From a virus: a DNA stretch of 64,000 nucleotides. The stretch covers positions 1 through 64,000 of the IMG/VR virus record IMGVR_UViG_3300028800_000076. One strand, written 5' to 3'. The translations under genes were made by a program, and so were the position numbers. Below the pieces are notes generated by a model, which was given only the letters and a program-made list of their open reading frames with translations, was not told where the DNA came from and searched no databases. Below, one piece after another: positions 9,546 through 48,933 of this stretch; position 1 is the stretch's first letter, and every line of letters starts with the position of its first letter.

Positions 9546-9574
9546 GTATATGCGTGTAACCCAATTCGTGTCAA
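9546..9574 (-). promoter_or_regulatory. Sigma-70-like promoter for 8946-9506
   Basis: TTGACA (9574-9569, minus strand) and TATACA (9550-9545) or ATATAC (9551-9546) with an 18- or 17-base spacer. The spacer carries AATTGGGTTA, also found beside TGACA at 14705-14722. It overlaps the end of the 9571-10089 gene and lies about 40 bases before the gene it should serve. Confidence 0.6.
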
Positions 9575-19438: not shown

Positions 19439-19714
19439 ATGAAAGACTACAAGATGCCCGGTCATGACTGCTTGCGCTGTCATGGTGTGCTGAATGGTGC
19501 AACGAACGTCACCAACAACGCCATGCCGAAAGACGGCGATCTCACCATCTGTATCTACTGCGGCCACCTCATGGCCTTCACCGACGATCTCAGTCTGCGT
19601 GAGCTTACCGCAGAGGAGCAGGAGTGGTGCAACAAGAGCAACCTAATCACTCTCGCCAAAGAGTCCGTTAAGGACATTAAGGCTGTCCACCCTGACAGGA
19701 GGACGCTGCAATGA
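19439..19714 (+). CDS. Small zinc-ribbon protein before the recombinase
   Basis: A 91-residue protein with CLRC near residue 11 and CIYCGHL near residue 38, a two-pair zinc ribbon, followed by a helical acidic tail (LRELTAEEQEWCNKSN). CGGAGGA precedes the ATG. The stop overlaps the start of the recombinase gene (ATGA), so the two are translated together. It might modulate the recombinase; this is inference from coupling. Confidence 0.65.
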   Translation: MKDYKMPGHDCLRCHGVLNGATNVTNNAMPKDGDLTICIYCGHLMAFTDDLSLRELTAEEQEWCNKSNLITLAKESVKDIKAVHPDRRTLQ

Positions 19715-20256
19715 TCGTCGGGTACGCTCGCGTCTCAACGACTGAGCAGAACCTGGACCTCCAGATCAAGGCCCTGAAGGAGGCGGGCTGTGAGAAGATT
19801 TACTCCGACAAAGCCTCCGGCAAGAATATGGACCGCCCAGAATGGGCGAAGTGCCGCAGGTATATCTCCACGGGAGATACTCTGGTCTGCTGGAAGCTTG
19901 ATCGTGTTTCCCGCTCCATGCTTGATCTCATCACCACGGTGCAGTCGCTGGATGAGCGAGGCGTGGGCTTCAAGGTGGTGACCGCGCCTATCGACACCAC
20001 CACAGCGCAGGGCCGCCTGATCTTCGGCATCTTCGCAGCACTGGCTGAGTTCGAGCGCGCCCTGATCCGGGAGCGTGTCCAGGCTGGCGTGAAGGCCGCA
20101 AAGGAACGCGGCGTCCAGTTCGGCAGGCCCCGCAAGGTCACCGTGGAGGTTCTGGAGCGCGCCAATGATCTGCTGGTGGCCGACCCCGAGATGACTGTAC
20201 GCAAGGCAGCAGAGAAGCTAGGCGTCTCTAAGAGCGCTCTTTATCGGGCTCTCTAG
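19711..20256 (+). CDS. Serine recombinase (resolvase/invertase)
   Basis: A 181-residue small serine recombinase. Catalytic domain start GYARVST with the nucleophile S9 and R7, the KLDRVSRSMLDL motif near 62-73 with R65 and R68, the long helix E (EFERALIRERVQAG), then a C-terminal helix-turn-helix (TVRKAAEKLGVSKSALYRAL). The family cuts and rejoins DNA at short inverted sites, resolving or inverting segments. It is too small to be a large serine integrase. The target is unknown; the abutting palindromes at 15463-15491 and the fibre genes are places to look. It ends convergently with the sugar cassette, stops overlapping. Confidence 0.9.
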   Translation: MIVGYARVSTTEQNLDLQIKALKEAGCEKIYSDKASGKNMDRPEWAKCRRYISTGDTLVCWKLDRVSRSMLDLITTVQSLDERGVGFKVVTAPIDTTTAQGRLIFGIFAALAEFERALIRERVQAGVKAAKERGVQFGRPRKVTVEVLERANDLLVADPEMTVRKAAEKLGVSKSALYRAL

Positions 20257-21407
20257 GCGGCCTCCTGCCGCTTCTCCAGCGCATCACCCACCTTCTTGAA
20301 GGCTTCGGCCATGGCTTTCATATGGCTACGACTGGGATCGTAGGCACAAACCTCGAAGAGCATCAGCTTGGAGTTGACCTCTTCCGTGATCGGAAAGCTG
20401 CCGTGCCCCTTGAAGCGCTTGAAGGCCGGGAGGTTATAGAGCGGCTCCACATAGCCAGCACGCACCGGCACGCCCTCCGCCCTCAGAGCCTTCACTACCC
20501 AGTCGCGGTCTCTGACCACCTCAGCCGCCCACATATAATAGACGTGCTTGCAGCCCTCGCGCTGGATCGGCGGCATGATCCACGGAATGTCCTTGACCAT
20601 GTGCGTTAGCTCTTCGGCCAGTTCGATGCGGCCTGTGATGATCGCCTCGCGCTTGGATAACTGCGCCAGGGCGATAGCGGCCGTGATCTCGGTCATCCGA
20701 AGATTAAGACCCGGAACGACGGTATCAGCCAACTCAGAATGATTACGATATAGCCGCATCCGATCAGCCAGAACGTCGTTGTCAGTAACGCAGAGTCCTC
20801 CTTCTCCACATTGAATATGCTTATGCACATTAAGTGAGAACACACCAATATCACCCACAGTGCCAGCATACTTGCCGTCCTCCATGGCAAAGGGAGCCTG
20901 CGCATTGTCTTCGATCATGATGGTCTTCGCGCCACAGTGACGCTTCCAGCGTGCCAACTCGGCTGGGTGGCCAAAGATGTTTGGCACGATGATAGCCCTG
21001 GTCTTGGTCCCAGGCACGCCATCCATATTGAAGGTCTTGGCTTCGATGTCATTGAACTTGATGTTCGCGCCCAGGAACGCTGGGGCAGCCGCTGTGGCGC
21101 TCATGGTATAGGGCGATGTGATCACCTCATAACCCTTAAATACGCCTGCCGCCATGCAGGCCACCAGCAATCCTGACGTGGCGCTATTCACAGCCACCGC
21201 ATGCTTAGAGCCGATCATATCCGCGAAGGTCTGCTCCAGCGCCTCGACACGCAGGCCGCCGTGTAGCTCGCCCCCCAGGTAACCGCTGAGGGGCCCAGCA
21301 CGCAGCACGGATGTGGCCATGCTGATCTCCTCCGGCCCTATCGTGTTGAAGGGCCGGAGAGACTGCTTGATGGCCGCAGGACCGCCGTCGATGGCCAGAA
21401 CAGTCAT
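20253..21407 (-). CDS. DegT/DnrJ/EryC1 sugar aminotransferase (PseC-like step)
   Basis: A 384-residue PLP enzyme: SATSGL phosphate-binding loop at 75-80, EDNAQAP at 166-172, and PLP lysine K196 in FSLNVHKHIQCGEGG, typical of the DegT family acting on nucleotide-linked keto sugars. With a PseB-type dehydratase next door it most likely aminates C4 of the 4-keto intermediate. The ORF runs 86 codons upstream, but the ATG at 21407 with GGAGAAAAGATC is preferred, and the long form would overlap another gene. Family is sure; the exact substrate is inferred. Confidence 0.85.
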   Translation of the reverse strand: MTVLAIDGGPAAIKQSLRPFNTIGPEEISMATSVLRAGPLSGYLGGELHGGLRVEALEQTFADMIGSKHAVAVNSATSGLLVACMAAGVFKGYEVITSPYTMSATAAAPAFLGANIKFNDIEAKTFNMDGVPGTKTRAIIVPNIFGHPAELARWKRHCGAKTIMIEDNAQAPFAMEDGKYAGTVGDIGVFSLNVHKHIQCGEGGLCVTDNDVLADRMRLYRNHSELADTVVPGLNLRMTEITAAIALAQLSKREAIITGRIELAEELTHMVKDIPWIMPPIQREGCKHVYYMWAAEVVRDRDWVVKALRAEGVPVRAGYVEPLYNLPAFKRFKGHGSFPITEEVNSKLMLFEVCAYDPSRSHMKAMAEAFKKVGDALEKRQEAA

Positions 21408-21826
21408 GATCTTTTCTCCAATGCAGCGATAGAACGCATGACATGAATGAGCGTTTCTGCTCGTTCTATCTGGCCCGCCCTCTTGGCTTCTCCAATCTCT
21501 TTGGAGAACTGTTTCTGTAGCAATCGCAGTGGGGGTCGCAGATAAGACAATCTCTGCGACCCCCTTCTCATCCCCCTTGATACCTGAGAGGAACGAACGC
21601 CGTGAGATGCACAGGTGTCTGCGTCGGCGTTTTCTGACGGCATAACCGTCAACACATCCAGCCACTGGGCTGTCAGTGTTCCTGCGGCCCGTTTAGCGAT
21701 AGACCGGGCCAGTTGCGGAGATGGTCGAAATTCAGGGTGAGCATCTGACGTATTTTTAATCGCACCTTCCACAGCGCGCAAGATGCGACGTTGCGATGGG
21801 GTAGCTCGTTTATAAAGCGAAACCAT
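21404..21826 (-). CDS. Basic hypothetical protein within the sugar cassette
   Basis: A 140-residue arginine-rich, helical protein with no family I recognise. It starts just after a TTGACA box that overlaps the end of the dehydratase gene, and its stop is coupled to the aminotransferase start. Its composition suits nucleic-acid binding, so it may be a regulator rather than an enzyme; nothing else supports this. Confidence 0.5.
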   Translation of the reverse strand: MVSLYKRATPSQRRILRAVEGAIKNTSDAHPEFRPSPQLARSIAKRAAGTLTAQWLDVLTVMPSENADADTCASHGVRSSQVSRGMRRGSQRLSYLRPPLRLLQKQFSKEIGEAKRAGQIERAETLIHVMRSIAALEKRS

Positions 21827-21839
21827 CGGCAAAAGATAG

Positions 21840-21860
21840 CCCGAAATGGGTTAGTGTCAA
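21840..21860 (-). promoter_or_regulatory. TTGACA/TAACCCA element inside the sugar cassette
   Basis: TTGACACTAACCCATTTCGG on the minus strand (from 21860), starting in the stop codon of the dehydratase gene. It repeats the element before the gene at 6053. A -10 box is unclear (ATCTTT after 17 bases). It may give the last genes of the cassette their own transcript. Confidence 0.4.
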
Positions 21861-22711
21861 GTATCCTGGAGGGCCTGCCGTAACTCAGCCACGCTCATGC
21901 GCCGTGCCTTGTCGCTGCTGTTGCCCTTGGCCATGGATTCGTGGCGCTTCTCCCATGTCGGAAGCCCTGTGACACGCACCGGCACACCTAGCGCCTCCGC
22001 AAGATCGCCCAGGCGGTAGGCTGGCAGTGTCGGGATGGCCAGTTCGCCACCCTTCATGGTTTGGATTGTGGATAGAACCAAGTCCACAGCCTCGGACATC
22101 CGCATAAAGAATCTTGTGCATTCTAGATCGGTCACCGGAAGCACGGTCGCGCCCTTCGCAATCATGGCCCGCCACACGGGCACGACTGAGCCAGTCGAGT
22201 TCCAGACATTGCCATAACGGCAGGCAGCAAACCTGGGCCCCTTCCAGCCTGTGGTGTTGTTTGCGGCCAGGAAGATGCTCTCAGCCAGCGCCTTGGAGCA
22301 GCCATAGGGGCTCACCGGCTCAAAGGCTTTGTCGCTGGAGAGCGCGACCACCTTCTTCACGCCAGCGTCTTGGGCTGCTTCGATCACGTTGATCGCGCCA
22401 TCCACATTGGTCTTGACCATTTCGACCGGATTATAATTACCGACCTCGATGCGCTTGAGGGCCGCAGCATGAACCACAACCTCGATACCTTCCATGGCCC
22501 GCCGTAGTCGGTCCCTGTCGCGTACATCTCCGATCATGAAACGAGTGATCTCAGAGCGGGCGCGAACCTTGAGTGCTTCAGCCTGTTGAAACTGTCGAAA
22601 TTCCCCACGCGAGAAGACCACAATACGCTGGACGCTCAGGTCGAGCAGCAGCCGTCTCACAAAGGCGTCGCCAAAGGCTCCCGAGCCCCCCGTAATCAGC
22701 ACGCTCTTCAT
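21857..22711 (-). CDS. pseB: PseB/FlaA1-type UDP-sugar 4,6-dehydratase
   Basis: A 284-residue short-chain dehydrogenase/reductase of the PseB/FlaA1 type. GGSGAFG at 8-14 binds NADP; IGDVRDRDRLR (60-70), HAAALKRIEVGNYNP (81-95), the catalytic set S126-D127-K128 with Y136 and K140, and a CRYGNVWNSTGSV-like stretch follow the family. FlaA1 uses Thr-Asp-Lys at the first triad; here Ser replaces Thr. The enzyme removes water from UDP-GlcNAc and inverts C5, the first step towards pseudaminic acid. It is somewhat shorter than bacterial PseB (about 330). It is coupled to the DUF4326 gene upstream by ATGA. Confidence 0.88.
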   Translation of the reverse strand: MKSVLITGGSGAFGDAFVRRLLLDLSVQRIVVFSRGEFRQFQQAEALKVRARSEITRFMIGDVRDRDRLRRAMEGIEVVVHAAALKRIEVGNYNPVEMVKTNVDGAINVIEAAQDAGVKKVVALSSDKAFEPVSPYGCSKALAESIFLAANNTTGWKGPRFAACRYGNVWNSTGSVVPVWRAMIAKGATVLPVTDLECTRFFMRMSEAVDLVLSTIQTMKGGELAIPTLPAYRLGDLAEALGVPVRVTGLPTWEKRHESMAKGNSSDKARRMSVAELRQALQDT

Positions 22712-22965
22712 TTATTGGCTTTCTCCAGCAGAATATCGGCATGGCACGGCAGCGGTGAGCACCAGCACACCAAGTCCTTGCCCTTCAGATCATGTACCTC
22801 AGCGCAGACTAAGGCTTCGGAGAAGTGCTTGCGATACTTCTCGATGCATTCCTCGCGCGTGCCGTCCTTACCGACCACATAGGGGTTTCCCCACTTGGTT
22901 GGCCTGCCGACATAGACCGCGTTAGCAGGTCTATGCCTGTCCCGCATGTTCCAGACCTTAGGCAC
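22708..22965 (-). CDS. DUF4326 protein
   Basis: An 85-residue protein with VGRPTKWGNPYVVG and, near the end, LVCWCSPLPCHAD, the signature of DUF4326, a small phage and bacterial family of unknown function with conserved cysteines and histidine. Start is GTG at 22965 with GGGAG eight bases before it; the N terminus from that start matches the family. It sits between PseI- and PseB-type genes with overlaps on both sides, an odd place for a non-sugar gene. Confidence 0.85.
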   Translation of the reverse strand: MPKVWNMRDRHRPANAVYVGRPTKWGNPYVVGKDGTREECIEKYRKHFSEALVCAEVHDLKGKDLVCWCSPLPCHADILLEKANK

Positions 22966-23968
22966 TGATCATCTCCCAGGTTAGGGCTTGGCCGCGCTTA
23001 AGTCTCCGGATCGTGTGCTTGCCCAGAATTTTGGGAAGCTCTTTTGGGGGAAGTCCATAGGCCGGACGGATCGAGCGGACATTCTCATTGGTGAATATCT
23101 CTCCGGCCTCCATGTTCTCCACGACATAGAGCGAGCGGCGGAACTGCTTTGATGATTCTTGACTGGTTGGTGCCCTAGGCGTGTTTATCGCAGTCCAGGT
23201 ATCGCGCACAGTCTTGCACATACCTTTGAATTCTTCGGGCTCCATGCTGAATTCAGCGTCCTCGATATCATCCTCACGCGAGACGCAAAAATGCTTCTCG
23301 ATAATAGATGCACCAAGCGCAGTCGCAGCAATAGGTATCTCCACGCCCACGGTATGGTCTGAAATTCCTGTCACAAAATGCGAACGTCCGATCTTTCTCA
23401 AATCGGCCTCAGCCACAGGCGTAGGATAGCCACTAATGCACGCTAGCGCCGTGGCATTATTTCCTGCCGCCACCATTGCGGCATCAATCTCCTCCTCAGA
23501 GGCCATGCCAGTCGAGATAATGAGCGGCTTTCCTGTTCTGGCCACAGCCTTGATCAAAGGAATATCCACAATCTCCATGCTGGCTATCTTATAGGCTGGG
23601 CACTCCAAGCTCTCTAAAAGCTCAAGCCCGGTCTTATCAAAGACAGAGGAGAAAACTGTCTGGCCATATTGTTTGGCGAGATGGAAAATACTCTCTACCA
23701 AGCCGGGAGGTGTCTGGGCCTTGCGATAAAGTTCGTGAAGCTTGCGGCCCTTCCATGGGCCCTCCTTAATGATAAAGTCGGACCCATCACTATCAATTGT
23801 TAGACTATCAGCGGTATAGCACTGAATTTTGACGGCATCTGCTCCTGCTCCAGCAGCTAGGCCCATCAGATAGGCTGCTTTCTCAAACGAGCCCTGATGA
23901 TTGCCGCTAATCTCCGCAATCATATATGGAGGTTCGCCAGGACCAATCTTGCGGCCGTTAATGATCAC
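22958..23968 (-). CDS. Nonulosonic acid synthase, PseI/NeuB type
   Basis: A 336-residue synthase. GPGEPPYMIAEISGNHQGS near the start, VKIQCYTADSLT, PAYKIASMEIVDIPLI, ISTGMAS, GISDHTVG and IEKHFCVSREDDIEDAEFS lie in the order of the NeuB TIM barrel, followed by an SAF (antifreeze-like) domain from about residue 280. NeuB enzymes condense a hexosamine with phosphoenolpyruvate; the AEISGNH and KGR-LHELY patterns suit the pseudaminic acid synthase branch. GTG start in a GTGA overlap with the small gene upstream. It is the committed step of the cassette. The branch is inferred; the superfamily is certain. Confidence 0.9.
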   Translation of the reverse strand: MIINGRKIGPGEPPYMIAEISGNHQGSFEKAAYLMGLAAGAGADAVKIQCYTADSLTIDSDGSDFIIKEGPWKGRKLHELYRKAQTPPGLVESIFHLAKQYGQTVFSSVFDKTGLELLESLECPAYKIASMEIVDIPLIKAVARTGKPLIISTGMASEEEIDAAMVAAGNNATALACISGYPTPVAEADLRKIGRSHFVTGISDHTVGVEIPIAATALGASIIEKHFCVSREDDIEDAEFSMEPEEFKGMCKTVRDTWTAINTPRAPTSQESSKQFRRSLYVVENMEAGEIFTNENVRSIRPAYGLPPKELPKILGKHTIRRLKRGQALTWEMISA

Positions 23969-24159
23969 GAAGGTATCTCTCCGAGTTTCATCATTTGATC
24001 GGCAATGAACCGATCATTCTGATTAATTTGCCGCAATACAGTCCTTGTCTCTTCGGGGGCCTTCTCAAGCGCGATGCGCAAAAGCTCCATCCACAGCCCA
24101 TTATTGTGACGACGTGTCTCCTCTATGAGACCGATGGTTGTGTGTTGCGCAATGTTCAT
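23965..24159 (-). CDS. Small protein typical of nonulosonate or glycan clusters
   Basis: A 64-residue helical protein (IEETRRHNNGLWMELLRIA, then QINQNDRFIADQMMKL). Short proteins with NN-LWM and IN-ND-I patterns are found next to sialic or pseudaminic acid genes in bacteria, as far as I recall; their function is unknown. ATGA and GTGA overlaps join it to both flanking enzymes, so it is likely made in step with them. Confidence 0.6.
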   Translation of the reverse strand: MNIAQHTTIGLIEETRRHNNGLWMELLRIALEKAPEETRTVLRQINQNDRFIADQMMKLGEIPS

Positions 24160-26171
24160 GACACTCTCACGCTTGCAGTCGCCGCAATGGATGGCCCAAC
24201 GATATCACTCTTCACCTTGTCTTCGGCCACAGCCTTCTTGATCACACCCAGCGTCCGGTCATAGGCGTTTACGATGCGGCGCATGTCGGCTTCATTGTGG
24301 GCGTACATGAAGTTGTGGCTGGCGATGATGAGCACGCCGTTCTTGATCATCTCCTGCATGTACAACGTCTTGATATCCTCAGCGGTGTTCATGCCAACGG
24401 CTATGAAGTTCACGCGCGAGAAATAAGAACCCGTGATGCGCAGGCAGTGGATGCCGTGCTTTTCCTGCATGAAGGAGACCAGCGTGGAAATCTCGCGGTT
24501 CTTCGCCATCAGCGCATCATGCACGGGCTCACGCTCCATCTTCTCGATAACTGCGAGCGAGGCGGCGAGCGAGAGCGTCTCGCCAAAGAACGTGCCGCTG
24601 AAGCAGACCTGATCCATCAGCTTCATGTACTTTTTCTTACCGACCAGGGCGCTGATCGGCATGCCGTTGCCCATGGCCTTGCCGAAGGTGGCCAGATCAG
24701 GGGTAACCCCCCAGACTTTCTGCGCTCCCCCCAGGCCAAACCGGAATCCCGTGATGATCTCATCAAAGATCAGCAGCGTGCCAGTGAGATTACAGAGAAC
24801 GCGCAATCTTGCGAGGAATTCTGGATCGGTCTCCGGCTCCACAATGACGCAGGCAAAGCGCTTGGTGACCAAAGCCTTCTCGGCAAACGTGATATCGCCA
24901 TGCCGCATGACGGTGGTGAAGTCGCGGATGCCTTCGGGCACGCCGATGTTGCGCACCGGGTCCCGCGCGATGGCCCAGTCCATCCAGCCGTGATAGCCCG
25001 CACTCAGAATATGGTCGCGGCCGGTCATGGCCCTGGCAAGCCTCACCGCAGCGCTGGTGACATCCGTGCCGTTCTTGCCAAAGCGCGCCATCTCAGCGCA
25101 TGGAATGTAACGATTCAGCTTCTCGGCCAGCTTATGCTCTAGATCGGTGGCGAGACTAAAGCTGATCCCACGATCAAGCTGCATACGGATAGCACGATCA
25201 ACATCAGGGTCCCGATGACCCAGAATAACTGGGAGCAAACCACCCACAAGGTCGACATAATCGTTCCCATCAACGTCATAGACGTGTCCTCCGCTGCCGT
25301 GTGTGACAAATAAGGGCGACTCCACGGGATACTGGAGCTTGCTCTTGGAGTAGGTCTGCGTACCCAGCGGAATGAGGCGCTCCGTGACGCCCAGCATGGC
25401 ATGGGAGACCGTGTGCTCGCGCTTCACCGGCTCCTCAACCACAAGCTCATCCCAGAAGCGCTCATTGCGCGGATGATACTTGTTGAGATTGCGATACTCT
25501 GGGTTCTTATCCAGAAAGCGTTTGATGCCCAGATACGAGAAATCCAGGCACTTTTCAGCCAGTATCTGACACAGATGATAGTCATCCTGGGTGTCGAGCA
25601 CCCATCGCTCCTTGTGCATGTCCGGAAGCGGGCAAGTCAGGTTCACGATCTTGTAGCGCATCCTGTTACGCAGGATGTATTGCGTCACGGTGTTGCGATC
25701 AGAGGGTCTGGTGGCCTTTTCGTTGGCCTCCTTGAGTGCCTTAACCGTCATCACCTCGCAGTCGAGTCCGTCAGGCCATGTCGGCGGGTCGATATTGGAG
25801 GCGTAGTCGGCTCCTGTGGCCTCTCGTAGGGCCGCAACCTCGCCCACAACGCGCGGATCAATAAAGGGGCAATCCCCTGTCAGACGAATTACAACATCCG
25901 CCTCCGCAGCGATGGCTGCTCCTGTAAATCTAGACAAAACATCAGTCTCGCTACCCCTGAAACACTTAATGCTTTTCTTTTTGCACCACTCTTCAATTAC
26001 ATTGTCTTGTTCGAGAGTGCTGGTGGCTATCCACACCTCGTTGACGCCGGGAATGCTATATGCAGACCCCGTTACCCAATCTAAAACAACACCCCCGCCA
26101 AGGGACATCAACACTTTCCCCCTCAGACGAGTGCTGCCAATCCTTGCAATGACAATCGCAACCGTTTTCAC
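24156..26171 (-). CDS. Fusion of SpsF-type cytidylyltransferase and class III aminotransferase
   Basis: A 671-residue two-domain enzyme. Residues 1-about 245 are an SpsF-like nucleotidyltransferase (ARIGSTRLRGKVL at 9-21, RLTGDCPFIDP at 96-106 with the metal-binding D100), as used to activate sugars with CMP. Residues about 255-655 are a class III aminotransferase like glutamate-1-semialdehyde aminomutase: NGTDVTSAAVRLAR at 367-380, FDEIITGFR at 469-477 and PLP lysine K498 in FGKAMGNG. GTG start overlapping the TAG of the HNH gene. Activation and an amino transfer may act on one sugar. Fusions of this kind occur in bacterial glycan clusters; the substrate is not shown. Confidence 0.85.
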   Translation of the reverse strand: MKTVAIVIARIGSTRLRGKVLMSLGGGVVLDWVTGSAYSIPGVNEVWIATSTLEQDNVIEEWCKKKSIKCFRGSETDVLSRFTGAAIAAEADVVIRLTGDCPFIDPRVVGEVAALREATGADYASNIDPPTWPDGLDCEVMTVKALKEANEKATRPSDRNTVTQYILRNRMRYKIVNLTCPLPDMHKERWVLDTQDDYHLCQILAEKCLDFSYLGIKRFLDKNPEYRNLNKYHPRNERFWDELVVEEPVKREHTVSHAMLGVTERLIPLGTQTYSKSKLQYPVESPLFVTHGSGGHVYDVDGNDYVDLVGGLLPVILGHRDPDVDRAIRMQLDRGISFSLATDLEHKLAEKLNRYIPCAEMARFGKNGTDVTSAAVRLARAMTGRDHILSAGYHGWMDWAIARDPVRNIGVPEGIRDFTTVMRHGDITFAEKALVTKRFACVIVEPETDPEFLARLRVLCNLTGTLLIFDEIITGFRFGLGGAQKVWGVTPDLATFGKAMGNGMPISALVGKKKYMKLMDQVCFSGTFFGETLSLAASLAVIEKMEREPVHDALMAKNREISTLVSFMQEKHGIHCLRITGSYFSRVNFIAVGMNTAEDIKTLYMQEMIKNGVLIIASHNFMYAHNEADMRRIVNAYDRTLGVIKKAVAEDKVKSDIVGPSIAATASVRVS

Positions 26172-26797
26172 TAGATTTTTCCCTCTAAAAGAGCCGTGAC
26201 AGCTTGTTGTCCCGAGAGACCGAGTATTGATGTGAGCTTTTTGAGCTTGGCATAGCTCAATCCAAGTCTTTGGGAGGCGACTTTCATCGGAACCATTTCT
26301 TCTTCAATGGCAATCCATTGTGTCCAATTCCGATTTATCGACTGCGTATACTCATCAGCCCAACGCACATTCCCTGGTTCATAATTTCCGTTTGGGTCTA
26401 CCCGGTCTAATTCTAGTTTTTCTGGGCATTCTCCCATATAATTAAGAAAATTTTCAAACTTCATCCACGGCTCATAAATCGTAATGCCTCGTCCGTGGTA
26501 GTTTGGATAATCCTTACAATTTGGATTTGTGCAGCGCTCTATCATCTTAGCCCAGGATTTATATGTTCTGGACATTCTTCCTCGTCGAGAATGGCCATGT
26601 ATTACACGAGCCGATCCGTCCAACTTGAGGCATCCACATGATTTTGTATGGCCTCTATTCAGCAGTTTTCCCATAGCGATATGGGGCTTACCGCAGTCAC
26701 AAGAACAAAGCCACGCAGATCGGCCTTCGACATTCTTCCACCGCTCTATAACCGTTAAACGGCCGAATCTCATCCCAGCCAACCGCAGCGCCCTCAC
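26171..26797 (-). CDS. HNH-type homing endonuclease within the sugar cassette
   Basis: A 208-residue protein with the GRLTVIERW start, two CxC/CxCL zinc-knuckle turns (CSCDCG, SCGCL), YKSWAKMIERCTNPN, YHGRGI, and a LDRVDPNGNYEPGNVRWADE core typical of phage HNH homing endonucleases, then a helix-turn-helix tail. Start is GTG at 26797 with GGGAGG before it, overlapping the TGA of the oxidoreductase gene; the stop overlaps the GTG of the fusion enzyme. AT-rich compared with its neighbours, so a recent arrival. It cuts DNA near insertion-free sites to spread itself (family knowledge). Confidence 0.85.
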   Translation of the reverse strand: MRALRLAGMRFGRLTVIERWKNVEGRSAWLCSCDCGKPHIAMGKLLNRGHTKSCGCLKLDGSARVIHGHSRRGRMSRTYKSWAKMIERCTNPNCKDYPNYHGRGITIYEPWMKFENFLNYMGECPEKLELDRVDPNGNYEPGNVRWADEYTQSINRNWTQWIAIEEEMVPMKVASQRLGLSYAKLKKLTSILGLSGQQAVTALLEGKI

Positions 26798-27663
26798 CGA
26801 TATCCTCCCATTTCGCGCACCTTCAGACATATCTCCAGCACGTCCAGGGCCTCCTGTCCCGTGCACCCGATTGTCTCCTTGCCATCGATCCTATCGATAA
26901 AGGCCTGCATCTCGTCCTTGTAGTCCTGATCGTAGCTGCCTTCGGTGTCCCAGTAATGAAGAGCGCCTTCTTCAGCTTCTGGGACATGCAATGTAGCTCT
27001 GCGCTCCGGCAGATTTACTTCGATCCAGCCTCCTGGGCCGCCAATGGCGAAGCCGCGCCGCTCTGGCTTCGTCACATAATCCAGGTGGATGTGGCTGATG
27101 ACGGAGCGCTGATGCGACAACAGAATATCGGCCGCATCGTCATGCTCGCCACCGCTTACGGCCGCCGAGTGAACCTTCGCAGGGCCCAACAGATAAAGGG
27201 CAAGATCAATCTCGTGGCTCCAGTTCAAGACTACGCCATCACGTAGATACTGCGGCTTATCGTTATACTGAGCACAGCAGAATGTAGCCCATGTGGGAGA
27301 GCCTATAAGCCCACCATCCAGCCATGCCTTGGCTTGCTTTACCGCGCTATTAAAGCGCTGGTTATAGCCGCACATCAATGGATAGGATTTGCCTCCAAGG
27401 ATAATCAGTTGATCCATAGTCGCGGCTATGGGCTTCTCTACAAAAACAGGCTTATCCCTTGCCATAAGCAAGTGAGCGAAATGGTGGGTTGTCGGACTTG
27501 CAATAACCACAGCATCAGACTTCTCGATCAACTCTTGCTCTGACTCAACAGAGCGCCCCATGCTGTCATCCGGATCGTAGACATAAATGGTATGCCCAAG
27601 CTCAAGAAGATTATGAGCATGCCGCCTGCCAATCGACCCAAAGCCAATGATACCAACCTTCAC
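26794..27663 (-). CDS. Gfo/Idh/MocA family oxidoreductase
   Basis: A 289-residue NAD(P)-dependent sugar oxidoreductase: VGIIGFGSIGRRH with GxGxxG at residues 7-12, VVIASPTTHH, VFVEKPIA with the EKP motif, and GVVLNWSHEIDLALYLLG, the catalytic His region of the family. The start is GTG at 27663, overlapping the stop of the methyltransferase (GTGA) with GAGGAGGGAG upstream; the longer ORF is a shadow. Shorter than the usual 330-350 residues. It may oxidise or reduce a sugar ring position during nonulosonate synthesis. Its 3' end meets the homing endonuclease. Confidence 0.85.
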   Translation of the reverse strand: MKVGIIGFGSIGRRHAHNLLELGHTIYVYDPDDSMGRSVESEQELIEKSDAVVIASPTTHHFAHLLMARDKPVFVEKPIAATMDQLIILGGKSYPLMCGYNQRFNSAVKQAKAWLDGGLIGSPTWATFCCAQYNDKPQYLRDGVVLNWSHEIDLALYLLGPAKVHSAAVSGGEHDDAADILLSHQRSVISHIHLDYVTKPERRGFAIGGPGGWIEVNLPERRATLHVPEAEEGALHYWDTEGSYDQDYKDEMQAFIDRIDGKETIGCTGQEALDVLEICLKVREMGGYR

Positions 27664-28292
27664 GACTCCCTCCTCGGCCAGCCGCGCGTTAGGTCCTTGC
27701 GCAGCGTAAAGACACCCTCGCGGCCTTCGCCCTTGCCGAAGATCACAAACTGCTCCAGCAGGTACGCAGGATTGGCGAGCCACAGATTGTGGTATGGCAT
27801 CTTGTATGTGGTGATGCGGGAGTCGTGGGCGTAGTCCTTGGTGTGCGGCTCCTCTGGCATAAAGTCGTGGATAACCAGAACGCCTTTATCTTCGAGCACG
27901 CGATCCACCTCGGAGACGATCCTGAACAGGTCCTCGCGGTCCACCAGATAGAGAAAAAAGCCCAGGACCACGAGATCGAAGCTACCTGGGCCGTAGCCCA
28001 GCACATCAGCGCTGCCGACACGCAGGCCTAGCTCACGATAGCGCCTGCGGCCCTCCTCAATGGCATCCCAGGATAGGTCGCATCCCTTACAGGATTCGGG
28101 TCCATAGCGGGTGTGTAGCTCATCGAGCCGCCAGCCATTGCCGCAAGCCACCTCCAGAATGTTCTTGGGCTTGATGCGGTCGTTGGAGAAGATTTCCCTG
28201 AGCACAGGATCATCAACGCGCGACTTTCCACGGTTACGCTTATGCCAATTGTTACCTTCCGACTCTCTAACGATTTCCGATTGCTTGCCCAC
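27660..28292 (-). CDS. SAM-dependent methyltransferase of the sugar cassette
   Basis: A 210-residue class I methyltransferase: NILEVACGNGWRLDELH (motif I, 45-60), GCDLSWDAI (motif II), DVLGYGPGSFDLVVLGFFLY (motif III region) and VLEDKGVLVIHDF. GTG start with GGGGAGG upstream, inside the end of the formyltransferase gene. Methyltransferases occur in pseudaminic and legionaminic acid clusters, where they may decorate the sugar or act on the amine; the acceptor here is unknown. Confidence 0.8.
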   Translation of the reverse strand: MGKQSEIVRESEGNNWHKRNRGKSRVDDPVLREIFSNDRIKPKNILEVACGNGWRLDELHTRYGPESCKGCDLSWDAIEEGRRRYRELGLRVGSADVLGYGPGSFDLVVLGFFLYLVDREDLFRIVSEVDRVLEDKGVLVIHDFMPEEPHTKDYAHDSRITTYKMPYHNLWLANPAYLLEQFVIFGKGEGREGVFTLRKDLTRGWPRRES

Positions 28293-28848
28293 GGCTGATC
28301 CTCCCCATGTCTTCCACGAACTCCACAGGGGTTTTCCATCCGGCCGGGAGCACTATCTTTTCTCGATCTTTAACCCGGTGCAAGGTGCCTTTACCCTCTT
28401 GTTTAATCGCCGGTATCTCTTTCCCTGCCACAATCCAGGACCAAACAGACTCAAGGGCAAAAAGGGCGTGATCCTGGAGGTGCCGATAGCTGCTTTCGAG
28501 GGTTTCTTTTTCAGGGTTGAGGAACCTAACCTTGAGTTGGAGCGCGATATCACCTGTGTCCAGACCTTCATCGATGTGGTGGACTGTTACGCCTTTGGGG
28601 GTGTCATCGAACCAGGACCATAGGTTGCAATCTGCCCCGCGATTCCACGGGAGCAATGACCAATGGACATTAAAAATACGGCCGCGATACTTCTCGATCA
28701 CCTCCGGCTTGATGATGTGCCTGTGGCCATAGCTGATCACGTAGTCGCAATCAACGAAGGGCTGGTTATGGGCCTGCGTGAGAATAGTGTGATCCTTGAA
28801 GATATGCTGGATCAGGTCTGGTCTTGTGGTGAGGAGCATGACCTTCAT
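28267..28848 (-). CDS. Sugar N-formyltransferase
   Basis: A 193-residue folate-dependent formyltransferase: catalytic N60 and H62 in IFNVHWSLLPWNRGAD, then GVTVHHIDEGLDTGDI with D97, the full Asn-His-Asp set of the methionyl-tRNA/WbkC formyltransferase fold. It lacks the C-terminal tRNA-binding domain, so an amino-sugar acceptor is likely. N-formylated pseudaminic acid is known from bacteria, which fits this cassette. ATGA coupling with the GNAT gene upstream. Reaction class is near certain; acceptor inferred. Confidence 0.87.
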   Translation of the reverse strand: MKVMLLTTRPDLIQHIFKDHTILTQAHNQPFVDCDYVISYGHRHIIKPEVIEKYRGRIFNVHWSLLPWNRGADCNLWSWFDDTPKGVTVHHIDEGLDTGDIALQLKVRFLNPEKETLESSYRHLQDHALFALESVWSWIVAGKEIPAIKQEGKGTLHRVKDREKIVLPAGWKTPVEFVEDMGRISRGQAIGNR

Positions 28849-29408
28849 GGGAAGAACTTTGCAAAGTGGACGAGAGCGATAGGTCTGCCGTTCTCGGACA
28901 GGAAGTGGTCATAGCGCACGCCATCCGGCTGCATGCCAGCAGCCAGCGCTAGCCTCACCATGGCGCGGTTTGATGTGTAGCACCCAGCCTCGATCTTGTG
29001 CATGTGGCACTGCTTTTCGAGAAAGGTCATGACTGCGGACCATGCCTCACGGCCTACGCCCTGGCCCCAATGCTCCTTGCCAATAAGGATGCCCATATTG
29101 GCGATGCGGTTATGCTCATCGATGTGGGCTGAGATAGTCCCTATATCGAAACGGCCTTGATGTTTGATAAGCCAGATGTGCGAGTTGGCCGGAAAGCTAT
29201 TGAGGTAATTATGCTGGCTTTCCTCTGTGTGCTTGCTATGCCGCTGTTCGGAGTATCGGACATTCTCTGGATCATTCAGCCATGCCACCTGGGTGGCAGT
29301 CACGAGGCTGGCACGGTGTGGCTCCAGTGTGAGCCGCTCAGTGGCTAATGTAGCTCGTCGGGGAGCGTCCCGCTGTCCAGACTTCGAAACCCCTTTTGCT
29401 TTAGCCAT
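28845..29408 (-). CDS. GNAT N-acetyltransferase, PseH-like position
   Basis: A 187-residue acetyltransferase of the RimJ/GNAT type. LATERLTLEPHR is the usual N-terminal strand, NMGILIGKEHWGQGVGREAW the acetyl-CoA loop (Q/R-x2-G-x-G/A), and SNRAMVRLALAAGM the helix before the last strand. In pseudaminic acid synthesis PseH of this fold acetylates the C4 amine. The first 20 residues overlap the gene upstream, so the true start is uncertain, but no later good start is visible. Confidence 0.75.
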   Translation of the reverse strand: MAKAKGVSKSGQRDAPRRATLATERLTLEPHRASLVTATQVAWLNDPENVRYSEQRHSKHTEESQHNYLNSFPANSHIWLIKHQGRFDIGTISAHIDEHNRIANMGILIGKEHWGQGVGREAWSAVMTFLEKQCHMHKIEAGCYTSNRAMVRLALAAGMQPDGVRYDHFLSENGRPIALVHFAKFFP

Positions 29409-31635: not shown

Positions 31636-33285
31636 ATGAACCAAGCCCTTCTCCTCGCAGCCGCAGCCAAGAAATACAGGGAACTGGCTGAGCGAGAGCA
31701 GTGTGAAGATGATCTCTACAAGTTCCTTCAGGCAGGCTGGAAGTACATTGACCCCGCCCCTTTTGTCGGCGGCTGGCATCTGGAGGCCATCGCAGAGCAC
31801 CTGGAGGCGGTCACCAGGGGCCAGATCAAGCGGTTGCTGATCAACGTGCCGCCCCGCTCCTCCAAAAGCTCCCTGTGCTCTGTGGCATGGCCAGCCTGGA
31901 CCTGGGCGCAGTCAGTGCAGGGTCCTTGCTCAGGCCCTCACGTCCAGTTCCTCAGCGCGTCCTATGCGCAGACCCTGGCATTGCGTGATTCGGTCAAGAA
32001 CCGCCGCCTGATCGAATCGCCATGGTTCAAGAAAATCTGGGGCGAGCGATTCCAGATGACCTCGGACGTGAACACCAAGGGCCGATTCGAGAACAACAAG
32101 GGCGGGTACAGACTCGCAACGTCTGTAGACGGGGCCCTAACTGGGGAAGGCGGACAGGTCATTTTAGTGGATGACGCCCATAATGCCACCGAGATCGAAT
32201 CAGACTTGGTGCGCGAATCCACCATCATGTGGTGGGACGAGGCCATGAGCACCCGCCTCAATGATCCGGCCACAGGTGCCTTTGTGGTGATCATGCAAAG
32301 GCTTCACCAGGAAGACTTAACGGGCCACATCAAGGACAAGGACCCCAACAACGACTGGACGTGGCTGATGCTGCCCATGGAGCACGACCGCTCCAGGCAC
32401 TGCATCACCTACGCCAAGAATGAATACGGCGAGAAAGAACAACTCTGGGAGGACCCTCGCGAGGAGGAAGACGAGCTTCTGTGCCCCACCCGCTTTCCCC
32501 GCGAGCAGGTGGACCGCCTCAAGGCCCAGCTAGGCCCCTTCGCAGCGGCGGGCCAACTTCAGCAGAGCCCCACGCCCAGAGGCGGCGGTATCATCAAGGA
32601 GGAGTGGTGGCAGGACTGGGAGGAGGATTCCTACCCGGTATTTGAGTACCTCATTGCCTCTGTGGATACGGCCTACACCGAGAAAGAGGAAAACGATCCC
32701 AGCGCGCTGACCATCTGGGGCGTCTTTCGCGAATACCGCACCGGCAACATGAAGATCATGCTGGTCTGGGCCTGGGAGGGCAGATTCGAGCTACACGACC
32801 TCGTGGAGGAAATCCTAACCACTTGTACGGTCAGTCCTATTTCCAATACACGCCAGGAGAAGCACGCAGGCAGGCCACGCTTTCCGGTCCATCTTTTATT
32901 GGTGGAATCCAAGGCTTCGGGATTGTCGGTGGGGCAAGAACTCTACCGGCTCATTGCGGGCAATGCGCCCTTCAACATCCAATTCCCCAACCTCAATAAG
33001 GGCCGATACACCCAGGACAAGGTGGCCCGGCTTTATTCGGTCCAGCATATCTTTGCGGACAAGATGGTCTACGCCCCACTGGGTAGAACCTTTGTGGACA
33101 AGGTGATCGATCAGGTCTCGGCCTTCCCCAAGGTCTCCCACGACGACTTGGTGGATACGGTCTCCCAGGCGCTCAAGTACCTCCGAGACACCGGCATCTT
33201 GGTGCGTCGGGACGAGCAGGCACTAGATTTAGATAGGGAAATGGCTTACCGTCCCAAGCAATTACCATTGTACCCAACCGGCTAG
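31636..33285 (+). CDS. terL: Terminase large subunit
   Basis: A 549-residue packaging motor and nuclease. ATPase half: PPRSSKSS at 72-79 as a variant Walker A, VILVDDAH at 175-182 as Walker B (Asp-Asp in place of Asp-Glu), then VVIMQRLHQEDLTGH coupling motif. Nuclease half: ASVDTAYTEKEENDPSA with D344, LLLVESKASG, and SHDDLVDTVSQAL near 501-513, the RNase-H-like metal residues. The layout matches the large terminases with a TIGR01630-type C terminus. No strong ribosome site precedes the ATG. It opens the rightward virion operon after the non-coding divide. Confidence 0.95.
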   Translation: MNQALLLAAAAKKYRELAEREQCEDDLYKFLQAGWKYIDPAPFVGGWHLEAIAEHLEAVTRGQIKRLLINVPPRSSKSSLCSVAWPAWTWAQSVQGPCSGPHVQFLSASYAQTLALRDSVKNRRLIESPWFKKIWGERFQMTSDVNTKGRFENNKGGYRLATSVDGALTGEGGQVILVDDAHNATEIESDLVRESTIMWWDEAMSTRLNDPATGAFVVIMQRLHQEDLTGHIKDKDPNNDWTWLMLPMEHDRSRHCITYAKNEYGEKEQLWEDPREEEDELLCPTRFPREQVDRLKAQLGPFAAAGQLQQSPTPRGGGIIKEEWWQDWEEDSYPVFEYLIASVDTAYTEKEENDPSALTIWGVFREYRTGNMKIMLVWAWEGRFELHDLVEEILTTCTVSPISNTRQEKHAGRPRFPVHLLLVESKASGLSVGQELYRLIAGNAPFNIQFPNLNKGRYTQDKVARLYSVQHIFADKMVYAPLGRTFVDKVIDQVSAFPKVSHDDLVDTVSQALKYLRDTGILVRRDEQALDLDREMAYRPKQLPLYPTG

Positions 33286-33742: not shown

Positions 33743-33867
33743 TGGACCACGCAATCACATTGGGTGATGTTCTGGTGGTTCTGGCCGTGTTTGTCGGCGT
33801 TCTGGGCGCGCTCGGTCTTCTGGTTCTTGTGATCAGCCTTACGAATCCATTCAGGAGCGGCCATTAA
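33742..33867 (+). CDS. 41-residue single-span membrane protein
   Basis: Found by hand. One long hydrophobic helix (about residues 8-34, rich in V, L, G) and a short basic tail. TAATG junctions on both sides tie it to its neighbours, and it directly precedes the portal gene. Holin-like or membrane-anchoring roles are possible; nothing decides. Confidence 0.65.
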   Translation: MDHAITLGDVLVVLAVFVGVLGALGLLVLVISLTNPFRSGH

Positions 33868-36539
33868 TGGCGCGCAGGCCCTCCGCACTGAAGCTGGTCC
33901 AGCCGGAAAACGCCCTTCCGGGCCCCGCCAGCGTTGACGTGCCCCCGCAGGGGCCTGATTCGCCTGTTTCGGTCAAAGATGGCGTCCTTTCCATCGAACA
34001 TCCGGACGGTGCGGTCACCATCGACTTCAATCCGGACCTCTCGAACCCAGACAAGAAGATTTCAGGCGACTTTTACGCCAATTTGGCGGGCGAAATAGAC
34101 GAAGGGACGCTGGAAACCATCGCTGCTGATCTCCTGGAGGGCTTCGACCGCGATGTGCAGTCCCGCAAGGAGTGGCTGGACACCCGGGCACGCGGAATCC
34201 AGCTTTTGGGTCTCAAACTGAATGACCCTAAGTCTGCCCCGGTCGATGGAACGGCCTCAATGGAGGGCACGTCCCAGGTTACGCACCCCCTGCTGCTGGA
34301 ATCCACCATCCGCTTCCAGGCCACCGCCCGTGGCGAGCTTTTGCCTGCCTCAGGGCCGGTCAAGGTGCGCAACGACGCGGTGCCGAACCCGAAGCCTGCC
34401 CCGCCGATGCCGCCCGTGGCCCTGCCGCCGCCGTCCCAGGAGAACAATCTGGGCATGGTGCCGGACGGCATGCCTGCTCCAGGCTCACCTGGGGCTGCAC
34501 CTCCCGCACCGTCTCCAGGGCCGCCACAGGGCATGCCAGGGCCCGCAGGAGGCGCTCCTGGGGCTCCGCCGCTGCCTGCCCCGCCCCCGCCTCCTCCTGA
34601 GGATCAGCCGATCAGTGACGACGATCTGGCGGGTGCCCTCGAAAAGGATATGAACCACTACCTGACGGTGACGGCGAAGGAATACATCCCCGACACCGAC
34701 AGAATGCTGTTCTACATCGGCTTTGGCGGTGACGGCTTCAAGAAGGTCTTTAATTGTCCCCTGAGGCAGCGCCCGGTCTCGGAGAGCGTAGACGCCGAGG
34801 ACCTGATTGTATCCAACGCTGCGACTGCGCTGGCCAATTGTGGGCGCATCACGCATCGCATCCGGATGCGCAAATCCATCCTCAAGCGCATGCAGATTAT
34901 CGGCGCGTACCGGGATGTGGAGCTTAATACCCCCTCCCCGCCGCAGCCGACCCCCGTAGACGTAAAGAAGGCTGAGATCGCAGGCGAGAATGTCAACGTC
35001 CAACGCCCCCAGGATCGCGACTACGAGATTCTGGAAATCTACTGCGAGCTTGATCTGGACGACTTCGCGCCCAAGCACCTCAGGAAAGAGGGCCTGCCGC
35101 TGCCCTATCGGGTGACCATCGAGAGGCAATCCAGGCAGGTACTCTCGGTTATCAGAAACTGGAACGAAGACGACAAACAGGCCCTGCCCAAGCAGTTCTT
35201 TGTGCAGTTTCCCTTTGTACGTGGCCTTGGCTTTTATGGCCTGGGCTTCATCCACATTCTGGGCAACACCACTATTGCGCTTACGGCTTTGTGGCGCGAA
35301 ATCATCGATGCCGGAATGTTCGCCAACTTCCCGGGCTTCCTCTATCTCAAAGCGCTGGGCAGGCAGCTAACCAATCAATTCCGGGTGCCTCCTGGCGGCG
35401 GCGTGGGTCTCGATGGAGGTCCCGGCCAAGACATCCGCTCCATGGTGATGGCGCTCCCCTACAAGGAACCCGGCGCGGCCATCACATCCTTTACCTCGCA
35501 CATCGAGGAGGTGGGCCAGCGTCTAGGCATGACCGGCCAGACGGAGGTGGGCGAGGGCAAGCAGGATGCTCCAGTTGGCACCACGCTGGCCCTGATCGAG
35601 CAGGCCACCAAGATCATGGACTCGGCCCACAAGCGGCTTCATGCCGCCCAGGCCGAAGAATTCCAGTTGCTCAAGGAGCGCTTCAAGGAAGACCCAGAAG
35701 CGCTGTGGCGGCACAACAAGCGCCCCACATTGCCCTGGAAAAAGGAGATGCTCTTAAGTGCCCTGGAGAACCATGATCTGGTTCCGGTGGCCGATCCGAA
35801 CAATCCCACGTCGCTGCATCGTGTGGCCAAGGCGCAGGCCCTCCAGCAGCTTCAGCAGACCTATCCGAACCTCTACAATCCGCTGGCGATCAACCAGCGC
35901 ATTCTGCGCACGGTGGATATCGACCCAGAGGGCCTCTTCAACGAGACGCCGACTCCGGATAAGCCAGACCCGAGACTGGTTGCGATCCAGGAGAAGGCTA
36001 AGGCATCGCAGATGCAGGCCCAGTTGGGTGCGATGCAGGCCCAGTTGCAGCAGACTGTAGAGACCATGAAGGTCCAGAATGCCCAGCAGGACCGCGAATC
36101 ACGCGAGCGCATTGCTGCGGCCAAGCAGCGCCTGGAAGAAACCCGGCTGGTGATCGAGCAAATCAAAGACTCGGATCAGTGGAATATGGAAAACGCTCAG
36201 CGCATCCAGGAAATGTACCACAAGGAAATGGCGCAAGCGGCTGACCTGGAGAATGAGCGCCGCCGCATGGTCATGGATGGCGCGCAGAAGCACCAGGAGC
36301 TTCAGCAGCAGGGCGTGGAGAAGGCCGTTGAGATACATCACGATAACATTGCCGCCACGCATGAGCATGAGCGAGCTAAGCAGCAGCATTCTGCCGATAT
36401 GGACATGGCCCAGCAAAAGCACGAGCAGGCCATGGAGCATCAGCGCCAGCTTCACGAACAAAAGCTGGAGCAAGCCAAAGCCCTTGCGGCTCAGGCAAAA
36501 GCAGCTAAACCTAGCAAACCCACAAAGGGGAAAAGCTAA
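33867..36539 (+). CDS. Portal protein, podovirus (P22-like) type
   Basis: An 890-residue protein. Residues about 90-500 look like a portal core (KEWLDTRARGIQLLGLKLND, DRMLFYIGFGGDGFKKVF, LDDFAPKHLRKEGLPLPY, FPFVRGLGFYGLGFIHILG). A proline-rich insert lies near 175-250, and the last 200 residues are a Q/E/M-rich coiled coil (repeated AQLGAMQAQL units) ending in basic KPSKPTKGKS. The dodecameric portal is the DNA gate of the head. It is longer than most portals because of the insert and the coiled-coil tail. Start in a TAATG junction. Confidence 0.88.
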   Translation: MARRPSALKLVQPENALPGPASVDVPPQGPDSPVSVKDGVLSIEHPDGAVTIDFNPDLSNPDKKISGDFYANLAGEIDEGTLETIAADLLEGFDRDVQSRKEWLDTRARGIQLLGLKLNDPKSAPVDGTASMEGTSQVTHPLLLESTIRFQATARGELLPASGPVKVRNDAVPNPKPAPPMPPVALPPPSQENNLGMVPDGMPAPGSPGAAPPAPSPGPPQGMPGPAGGAPGAPPLPAPPPPPPEDQPISDDDLAGALEKDMNHYLTVTAKEYIPDTDRMLFYIGFGGDGFKKVFNCPLRQRPVSESVDAEDLIVSNAATALANCGRITHRIRMRKSILKRMQIIGAYRDVELNTPSPPQPTPVDVKKAEIAGENVNVQRPQDRDYEILEIYCELDLDDFAPKHLRKEGLPLPYRVTIERQSRQVLSVIRNWNEDDKQALPKQFFVQFPFVRGLGFYGLGFIHILGNTTIALTALWREIIDAGMFANFPGFLYLKALGRQLTNQFRVPPGGGVGLDGGPGQDIRSMVMALPYKEPGAAITSFTSHIEEVGQRLGMTGQTEVGEGKQDAPVGTTLALIEQATKIMDSAHKRLHAAQAEEFQLLKERFKEDPEALWRHNKRPTLPWKKEMLLSALENHDLVPVADPNNPTSLHRVAKAQALQQLQQTYPNLYNPLAINQRILRTVDIDPEGLFNETPTPDKPDPRLVAIQEKAKASQMQAQLGAMQAQLQQTVETMKVQNAQQDRESRERIAAAKQRLEETRLVIEQIKDSDQWNMENAQRIQEMYHKEMAQAADLENERRRMVMDGAQKHQELQQQGVEKAVEIHHDNIAATHEHERAKQQHSADMDMAQQKHEQAMEHQRQLHEQKLEQAKALAAQAKAAKPSKPTKGKS

Positions 36540-47659: not shown

Positions 47660-48052
47660 GTGGCTGTCAATTATAGCCAGACTGCAATCAACGACCGGCT
47701 TTTGGGGGTTATTGCGGCCATTGATGGGGGCGCGACCAACGGGAGCCTGTTACTGATGGCGGGCTCCATATTGGTATCCACAATTCAATTGGCTAGACCT
47801 TGCGGGACTGTGAACGGCGGGGTACTAACCTTTGCGGGTACTCCGCTCCTGGACCCCTCGGCCGCAGCGACTGGAAACGTGGATAGCGCCATCATTCAAG
47901 ACGGGAATGGTTCCACCATGGTCTCCGGCCTGACCGTGGGCATCCCCCTTTCAGCCAGCGTCGATATCGTCATCAGCAACGGCCTGAACAGCACCCTGGT
48001 TACGGCAGGCCAGACCGTCGAGCTTCTTGCAGCACAAATAACGGGATCGTAA
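47660..48052 (+). CDS. Virion structural protein, GTG start
   Basis: A 130-residue Gly/Ala/Thr-rich beta protein (VNYSQTAINDRLLGVIAAID, ASVDIVISNGLNSTLVTAG). GTG start directly after the stop of the metal-motif gene, and stop in a TAATG junction with the next. Repetitive composition like its structural neighbours. No family named. Confidence 0.6.
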   Translation: MAVNYSQTAINDRLLGVIAAIDGGATNGSLLLMAGSILVSTIQLARPCGTVNGGVLTFAGTPLLDPSAAATGNVDSAIIQDGNGSTMVSGLTVGIPLSASVDIVISNGLNSTLVTAGQTVELLAAQITGS

Positions 48053-48933
48053 TGGCAAAACTGACCGAAACCTTTAATGATCGCGCTCGTGCCAATGGTG
48101 GCATGATCCACATTGAGCCGCCGCATGAACCCCTGACCAATGAACCGTACCCCCCGCTTGTATCGGTTACAGCCGGGCTGATAACTCCCCAGCCAGTTCC
48201 GGAAGCCAAGCCACAAGAGCTTAAGGTGGCGCTGATCGGGACTGCGCCCTCCTCGCGGCTCCTGGCCCCCTTCAACGACAACTCCTGGCAAATCTGGGCC
48301 TGCTCGCCGGGCAACATGAACACCATCCCCAGGTGGGATGTCTGGTTCGAGCTTCACGGCAATCTGCTCTGGGAAGAGAACAAGGGCTATGGCGAGCCTT
48401 ATATCAACTGGCTCAAAACCCATAGAACGCCGGTCTATATGCAAGACCAGCGTTATTGTCCCAATGCCTCGACCTTTCCCATGAAGGAGATGGTCCAGGA
48501 GTTCGGTAGGGACTTCTTCACGTCAAGCTTTGCCTGGATGATGGCCTTCGCCATCCACAAAGGGGCCAAGGAGATCGCCATGTATGGCATCGATATGGCG
48601 TCCCGTGACGAATACATCCTTCAGCGGCCCGGCTTCTACTTCTTCCGGCACCTCGCCCAGCAGCGCGGCATTAAGGTGTCAGCGCCTCATGAATCTGATA
48701 TTATGCAGTCGCCTGGGCTTTATGGTTATTCGGACGTGACCCCGATGGGCCGTAAAATCCTGGCGCGCGAGCAAGAGATCAACAAGAGGCGGGACGGCAT
48801 GCGGGCCGAGCTTCAGCGTCTTCAGCAGAACCTGACCTATCTCGATGGTGCCTCGGAAGACATCGACTATTTTAAGAGTATCTGGATGGGCCAAGGGTCC
48901 GCCGTGCCCGAAGGGGGGCTAAACAATGGCTAA
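48052..48933 (+). CDS. Rossmann-like protein, possible sialyltransferase-type glycosyltransferase
   Basis: A 293-residue protein. After a polar start, KVALIGTAPSSRLLAPF resembles the nucleotide-sugar loop at the start of DUF115 and GT42 (Cst-type sialyltransferase) folds. Later TSSFAWMMAFAIHKGAKEI and MYGIDMASRDEY mirror the TSG-xxM-xxAIxxGxKEIYLxGIDFY stretch of Cst enzymes. It ends in a coiled coil of about 50 residues. If the likeness is real it could transfer a CMP-sugar made by the cassette. Related proteins exist in phages that lack such cassettes, so this is a hypothesis. Confidence 0.5.
   Translation: MAKLTETFNDRARANGGMIHIEPPHEPLTNEPYPPLVSVTAGLITPQPVPEAKPQELKVALIGTAPSSRLLAPFNDNSWQIWACSPGNMNTIPRWDVWFELHGNLLWEENKGYGEPYINWLKTHRTPVYMQDQRYCPNASTFPMKEMVQEFGRDFFTSSFAWMMAFAIHKGAKEIAMYGIDMASRDEYILQRPGFYFFRHLAQQRGIKVSAPHESDIMQSPGLYGYSDVTPMGRKILAREQEINKRRDGMRAELQRLQQNLTYLDGASEDIDYFKSIWMGQGSAVPEGGLNNG

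Follow-up and report, generated by a model that had tools for sequence, protein, structure and literature searches.

A nonulosonate-type sugar cassette conserved across a lineage of uncultured tailed phages

Main

A near-complete nonulosonate operon is fixed across one lineage of tailed phages, in which it lies beside the genes for packaging; the virion module also encodes a candidate transferase. By its gene content, the operon could build and activate a bacterial relative of sialic acid with added decoration. The sugar genes reported from phages are often few, optional and host-directed. Among open-licence papers we found no described phage with the pathway of this cassette; in one review, pseI appears among the abbreviations explained beneath a table of marine phage genes.

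The DNA analysed here (the window) comprises bases 1-64000 of the 76,204-base IMG/VR virus record IMGVR_UViG_3300028800_000076. Terminase, portal and major head proteins are recognised on the source contig, hence it belongs to an uncultured tailed phage (Caudoviricetes). The terminase large subunit (31636..33285, plus strand; PHROG 38, 5e-86) is the divergent neighbour of the cassette. The portal protein follows at 33867..36539 (plus strand; PHROG 1216, 4.7e-17), and its nearest named phages are MW202675, the Pelagibacter phages HTVC023P and HTVC027P, the Roseobacter phages CRP-901/902 and RW-type Caulobacter phages. We looked for a host by searching with the major head protein in 369 genomes drawn from one class around a Rhodospirillaceae genome, and in 396 Acidobacteriota genomes. 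There were two matches, at 37% and 63%; the second lies on a contig of 4.4 kb that had been binned with an Acidobacteriota genome. Both were too weak, and a host assignment on this basis was rejected.

Results

The initial annotation had read nine coupled sugar genes at 20253-29408. The cluster is indeed there, on the minus strand, but it consists of eight sugar-enzyme genes with two unrelated insertions interspersed. From 29408 down to 20253, the cassette encodes a GNAT acetyltransferase with a proposed PseH-like role (28845..29408; Pfam Acetyltransf_3, 1.3e-21), a formyltransferase (28267..28848; Formyl_trans_N, 5.7e-18), a SAM-dependent methyltransferase (27660..28292; Methyltransf_25, 3.4e-13), a Gfo/Idh-type oxidoreductase (26794..27663; GFO_IDH_MocA, 1.4e-10), an HNH endonuclease (26171..26866; PHROG 374, 1.7e-58), a 671-aa fusion of a CTP_transf_3 nucleotidyltransferase with a class III (GSA-type) aminotransferase (24156..26171; Pfam, 1.6e-22 and 1.4e-46), a PseI-family nonulosonate synthase with a SAF domain (22958..23968; NeuB, 1.3e-65), a DUF4326 protein (22708..22965; PF14216, 3.5e-28), a PseB-type 4,6-dehydratase (21857..22711; Polysacc_synt_2, 1.9e-74) and a DegT aminotransferase with a proposed PseC/LegC-like role (20253..21407; DegT_DnrJ_EryC1, 4.8e-61). 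The HNH and DUF4326 genes are the insertions that fall outside the pathway; DUF4326 is present in few relatives. Judged from the sequence, the starts first read for the DegT gene (21665) and the Gfo/Idh gene (27783) are most likely wrong, and 21407 and 27663, respectively, are preferred. In the formyltransferase the usual active-site N-x-H and D are visible by eye (FNVHWSLLP...DEGLDTGDI). We also considered an inversion switch driven by the neighbouring recombinase, for which no convincing flanking inverted repeats were found.

How closely these enzymes follow the pseudaminic acid pathway differs from gene to gene. The synthase is the firmest assignment: it scores 384 bits against TIGR03586 (PseI; cut-off 340), with PseI clearly preferred to NeuB, so that the early reading of a PseI/NeuB-type synthase with SAF domain holds. 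Residues E19, K47, K127, H205, H226 and R301 are invariant in the alignment and correspond to the NeuB residues that act in catalysis and metal binding (a Glu, two Lys and two His, plus the SAF-domain Arg); judged by this alignment, the active site is intact and of the NeuB type. The other labels borrowed from the pathway fit as family homologies, and all three of PseB, PseC and PseH fall below the curated cut-offs in the window. The dehydratase reaches 305 bits against the PseB model (cut-off 408), and its alignment with the UDP-GlcNAc dehydratase 2gn4 shows that the S-D-K and Y-x3-K pattern is retained; the dehydratase of a lineage relative (L010) exceeds the cut-off at 429 bits. PseC is the best model for the DegT protein, although at 171 bits it misses the cut-off of 424, and the GNAT protein scores 22.7 bits against the PseH cut-off of 93.1. 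Judged by the cut-offs, the two proteins are homologues of PseC and PseH and not members. The proposed CMP-type nucleotidyltransferase fused to an aminotransferase is recovered by Pfam as the CTP_transf_3/class III fusion, but it is not PseF: the nucleotidyltransferase domain in the window has no match to the PseF model at E 0.001, against 343 bits for a true PseF control, and is KdsB-like by score. In the fusion protein, K498 of the FGKxMxNGMP motif is invariant across 14 relatives. Since PseB, PseC and PseH scores lie below their cut-offs and the nucleotidyltransferase is not PseF, 'CMP-pseudaminic acid' should be read as a prediction of class rather than as an identified product. The claim that the phage makes its own activated nonulosonate is thus upheld for a phage-borne pathway with a true PseI-family synthase, and narrowed for the product. 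The extra aminotransferase, oxidoreductase, methyltransferase and formyltransferase that had been reported are all present by Pfam.

The same gene set was sought in other phages by scanning 2.9 million viral contigs. An alignment query found 42 further viral contigs carrying the cassette, all with the fused gene in a matching neighbourhood; in the nucleotidyltransferase region, no pair of these contigs is 95% identical. A single-protein PseI query returned nothing. All eight core domains are present in 26 of these relatives within the stretch fetched. Usually the genes run GNAT, methyltransferase, Gfo/Idh, fusion, dehydratase, DegT and synthase, with transcription running away from the terminase and portal; unlike this order, the synthase precedes the dehydratase in the window and in one relative (L088). 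A cassette-blind search with the portal alone gave 80 loci. Of these, 31 continue for 1.5 kb or more upstream of the terminase, and cassette genes lie there in all 31. Some of these contigs coincide with or are related to the earlier finds, and the 31 do not count as independent events. Because the portal-based sample finds the cassette without exception, it is evidently a core feature of one phage lineage. In a named phage collection, a PseI search gave three weak matches, one of them on a bacterial contig, and a DNA search with the cassette gave no match.

These data bear directly on whether the cassette is bacterial DNA joined to a phage contig by misassembly or by a recent insertion. Homologous operons do exist in bacteria, and the bacterial contig among the PseI matches points the same way. 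However, 42 non-identical contigs and the whole cassette-blind sample have this cassette in the same position, and in a tree of the fusion protein a branch with 100/99 support separates the 42 viral rows from the bacterial rows. On these three grounds we reject this explanation as very improbable.

The genes for decorating the sugar vary within the lineage. The formyl and methyl decoration first proposed is borne out in the window, where both genes are present, but the formyltransferase occurs in only 5 of the 42 relatives and is therefore not core. Several other relatives have a second methyltransferase, and one (L074) has ATP-grasp and PIG-L deacetylase genes.

No PseG-like hydrolase had been seen in the window, and a model search confirms this for the whole 76,204-base record, which has no match anywhere. 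The same holds for 35 lineage records (that of the window and 34 related ones), while the model does match a control Klebsiella plasmid and two viral contigs with ordinary pse loci. A second, differently arranged viral set has PseB, a class III aminotransferase, nucleotidyltransferase, Gfo and PseI, in many cases also formyltransferase and GNAT, and mostly no DegT. Of the 15 records tested from this set, 14 gave no match to PseG and one a match below the cut-off. Among 13 bacterial genomes chosen for their relatives of the fusion, however, PseG is over the cut-off in 10, with weaker matches in the other 3. Its frequency in these bacteria, whose operons are the closest to the cassette, suggests that the PseG step is normally needed, and the host may supply it. 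The opposite reading, in which a nonulosonate or similar keto sugar acid is made through another hydrolase or from a different substrate and the sugar is one not yet described, can draw on the two viral sets, which lack PseG and share PseB-like, class III aminotransferase, nucleotidyltransferase, Gfo and PseI genes, and on the Aeromonas subgroups described below; given the bacterial pattern, we consider it improbable.

Known systems resemble the cassette in part. With the CMP-pseudaminic acid pathway (PseB, PseC, PseH, PseG, PseI and PseF) it shares PseI, a PseB-type dehydratase, DegT, GNAT and CTP_transf_3, but it is without PseG, its KdsB-like nucleotidyltransferase is fused to a class III aminotransferase, and it has extra Gfo/Idh, methyltransferase and formyltransferase genes. 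In the flagellin glycosylation islands of Aeromonas, group I has a class III aminotransferase beside pseF, subgroups ID and IE are without pseG, and other groups contain genes for Gfo/Idh, GNAT and methyltransferase proteins (PMC7874193). The combination of a class III aminotransferase with no pseG is therefore not itself new, and the cassette is a viral variant of islands already known; those islands are bacterial and lie beside flagellar genes and a Maf transferase, whereas the phage operon is core to a phage lineage. Closer still in gene content are acidobacterial Pse-type operons (L100 and L101), which share PseB, DegT, GNAT, Gfo, nucleotidyltransferase-aminotransferase, a formyltransferase-type gene and PseI with the cassette, but contain PseG and encode proteins only about 28-46% identical to those of the phage. 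The most similar bacterial operon, L101, runs PseB, DegT, GNAT, Gfo, nucleotidyltransferase-aminotransferase, a PseG-GNAT fusion, formyltransferase-type, PIG-L deacetylase and PseI, and by gene content the phage cassette resembles an operon of this kind that lacks PseG and adds methylation. In L100, a single 1028-aa protein joins Gfo/Idh, CTP_transf_3 and class III aminotransferase, and this triple fusion suggests a link between the steps of oxidation, transamination and nucleotide transfer. Among phage-borne nonulosonate enzymes, EpaA of Acinetobacter prophages likewise has a CTP_transf_3 start fused to a second enzyme; EpaA and EpaB modify host Pse and do not make it, and the partner domain in EpaA is an aldo-keto reductase and EpaB is an SDR, whereas the second domain of the cassette fusion is a class III aminotransferase (PMC12053666).

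A candidate for the transfer step lies in the virion module, at 48052..48933 on the plus strand. The 293-aa protein has no significant match in Pfam or PHROG. In its AlphaFold model (pLDDT 82, 35 sequences), the ten best PDB matches by Foldseek are all the Campylobacter sialyltransferase CstII of family GT42, most with CMP or an analogue bound, with E from 2e-6, probability 1.00 and modest TM-scores of 0.35-0.51; a Pasteurella sialyltransferase is the 13th match and a Maf glycosyltransferase the 31st. The likeness to CstII is one of predicted fold, with identity at or below 18%. Against Pfam CST-I the family is not significant (E 0.24 in one of 35 members), and the best match of its profile to PDB sequences, a CMP-Neu5Ac sialyltransferase, is not significant either (E 0.18). 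On the model, the protein is a candidate CMP-using, sialyltransferase-like transferase. It is present in 13 of 13 lineage records of at least 70 kb, in one of them with in-frame stops; in all, the match carries in-frame stops in two relatives. It is absent from MW202675 and Caulobacter phage RW, both also without a PseI match, and relatives of the protein are also present in phages without PseI. Within the lineage both cassette and transferase are universal, so co-occurrence does not separate their link from shared lineage. Structural genes surround the transferase gene, and in 13 of 15 loci the gene of a 130-aa protein lies close before it. In the window this conserved gene (47660..48052, plus strand) ends at the start of the transferase gene, and its product is a fibre-like virion protein and candidate acceptor. 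The model of the 130-aa protein has moderate confidence (pLDDT 71.5); the fold that it matches best, though weakly (TM 0.60, E 5e-3), is that of a phage 7-7-1 tail-fibre chain, the structure entry for which is named in PMC12796354. Relatives of the 130-aa protein sit in structural modules of other phages.

Discussion

Our best explanation, which we regard as evenly poised, is that the lineage synthesises a pseudaminic-type sugar with modifications, either relying on a borrowed PseG or bypassing it, and most likely attaches the sugar to the virion with the CstII-like protein. The PseB-like enzyme and the DegT aminotransferase would convert UDP-GlcNAc into a 4-amino-6-deoxy sugar, which GNAT (or the formyltransferase) would acylate. 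UDP would be removed by PseG of the host or by an unrecognised enzyme, and PseI would join the free sugar to PEP. The Gfo/Idh enzyme and the class III aminotransferase could then turn a further hydroxyl into an amino group; we infer that this extra group, at whichever site, is introduced and then acylated or methylated, the methyl and acyl enzymes decorating the sugar. The fused CTP_transf_3 domain would activate the product with CMP, and the CstII-like protein would transfer it; the most likely acceptor would be a structural protein of the phage, for example the 130-aa fibre-like protein encoded next to the transferase. We count against this explanation the lack of PseG in 35 records and the missed cut-offs of PseC, PseH and PseF, and, for the CstII-like protein, the lack of a significant GT42 sequence match, the modest TM-scores, the in-frame stops in two relatives, the universality of both cassette and transferase in the lineage, which keeps the two from being separated statistically, and the relatives in phages without PseI. 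More tentatively, the lineage could hold a self-contained sugar-to-particle system, with its own GT42-like transferase acting on virion fibres, as a core trait and not an optional metabolic gene.

The main rival is modification of the host surface, in which a host or phage transferase puts the sugar on host flagellin, LPS or capsule and thereby blocks competing phages or changes the surface. The characterised phage nonulosonate enzymes EpaA and EpaB do alter the host capsule (PMC12053666), related bacterial operons include flagellin glycosylation islands (PMC7874193), and the host would need PseG, as hosts that make such sugars have. However, the candidate transferase is conserved, and its gene sits with the late virion genes, next to that of a fibre-like protein. 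Nor is the lineage obviously temperate, no integrase having been identified, although without a systematic search. Host-surface modification is in our view rather unlikely, and we favour virion decoration, which is the more specific hypothesis because a sialyltransferase-like gene lies in the virion module.

Lineage-wide conservation of the sugar genes suggests that the virus produces a sugar with which it coats either its own particle or its host. If virion decoration is true, some phages would display self-made sialic-acid-like sugars, and such sugars could shield particles, tune adsorption or mimic the flagellin glycans of the host.

Comparable sugar genes are carried by a second set of viral contigs (L219, L223, L225, L226 and similar ones up to L250), some of them longer than 100 kb. 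These contigs encode PseB, a class III aminotransferase, a nucleotidyltransferase, Gfo and PseI, and often a formyltransferase and a GNAT acetyltransferase, in a gene order that differs from that of the window's cassette. PseG was not found in this second set, in which 14 of the 15 tested gave no match and the other fell below the cut-off.

The PseB-type enzyme occurs in two lengths. The window's version (21857-22711) is the short one, with about 285 aa; the one in a cassette-bearing relative (L010:7633-8550) has about 305 aa and exceeds the PseB cut-off. In a sub-group of relatives (L078:9974-10618; L072:9950-10639; L074:9899-10630; also L182, L187, L209 and L215) the synthase measures about 212–250 aa. 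These short synthases keep the NeuB barrel motifs, including both lysines and both histidines; the SAF domain is entirely absent and the barrel is incomplete.

Other genes lie in or beside the cassette. An HNH endonuclease gene (window 26171-26866) sits between the Gfo/Idh and fusion genes, and L187 has an HNH endonuclease at the same junction (near 9558). A serine recombinase/resolvase-like gene (window 19711-20256, +) runs towards the DegT gene and overlaps its 3' end, and a search for flanking inverted repeats able to form a switch found no convincing ones. Between cassette and terminase lies a gene (window 29632-30237, -) whose protein matches PHROG 7371 (function unknown) and which we read as von Willebrand A-like from the stretch 'FILLDRSGSM'.

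On the host, a 4,407-base contig from an Acidobacteriota genome bin (L385) encodes a major head protein 63% identical to that of the window. This match either points weakly to an acidobacterial host or arose from faulty binning.

In one relative, ATP-grasp and PIG-L deacetylase genes (L074:6171-7657) are inserted between the PseB and DegT genes, suggesting that its sugar may carry a different acyl decoration.
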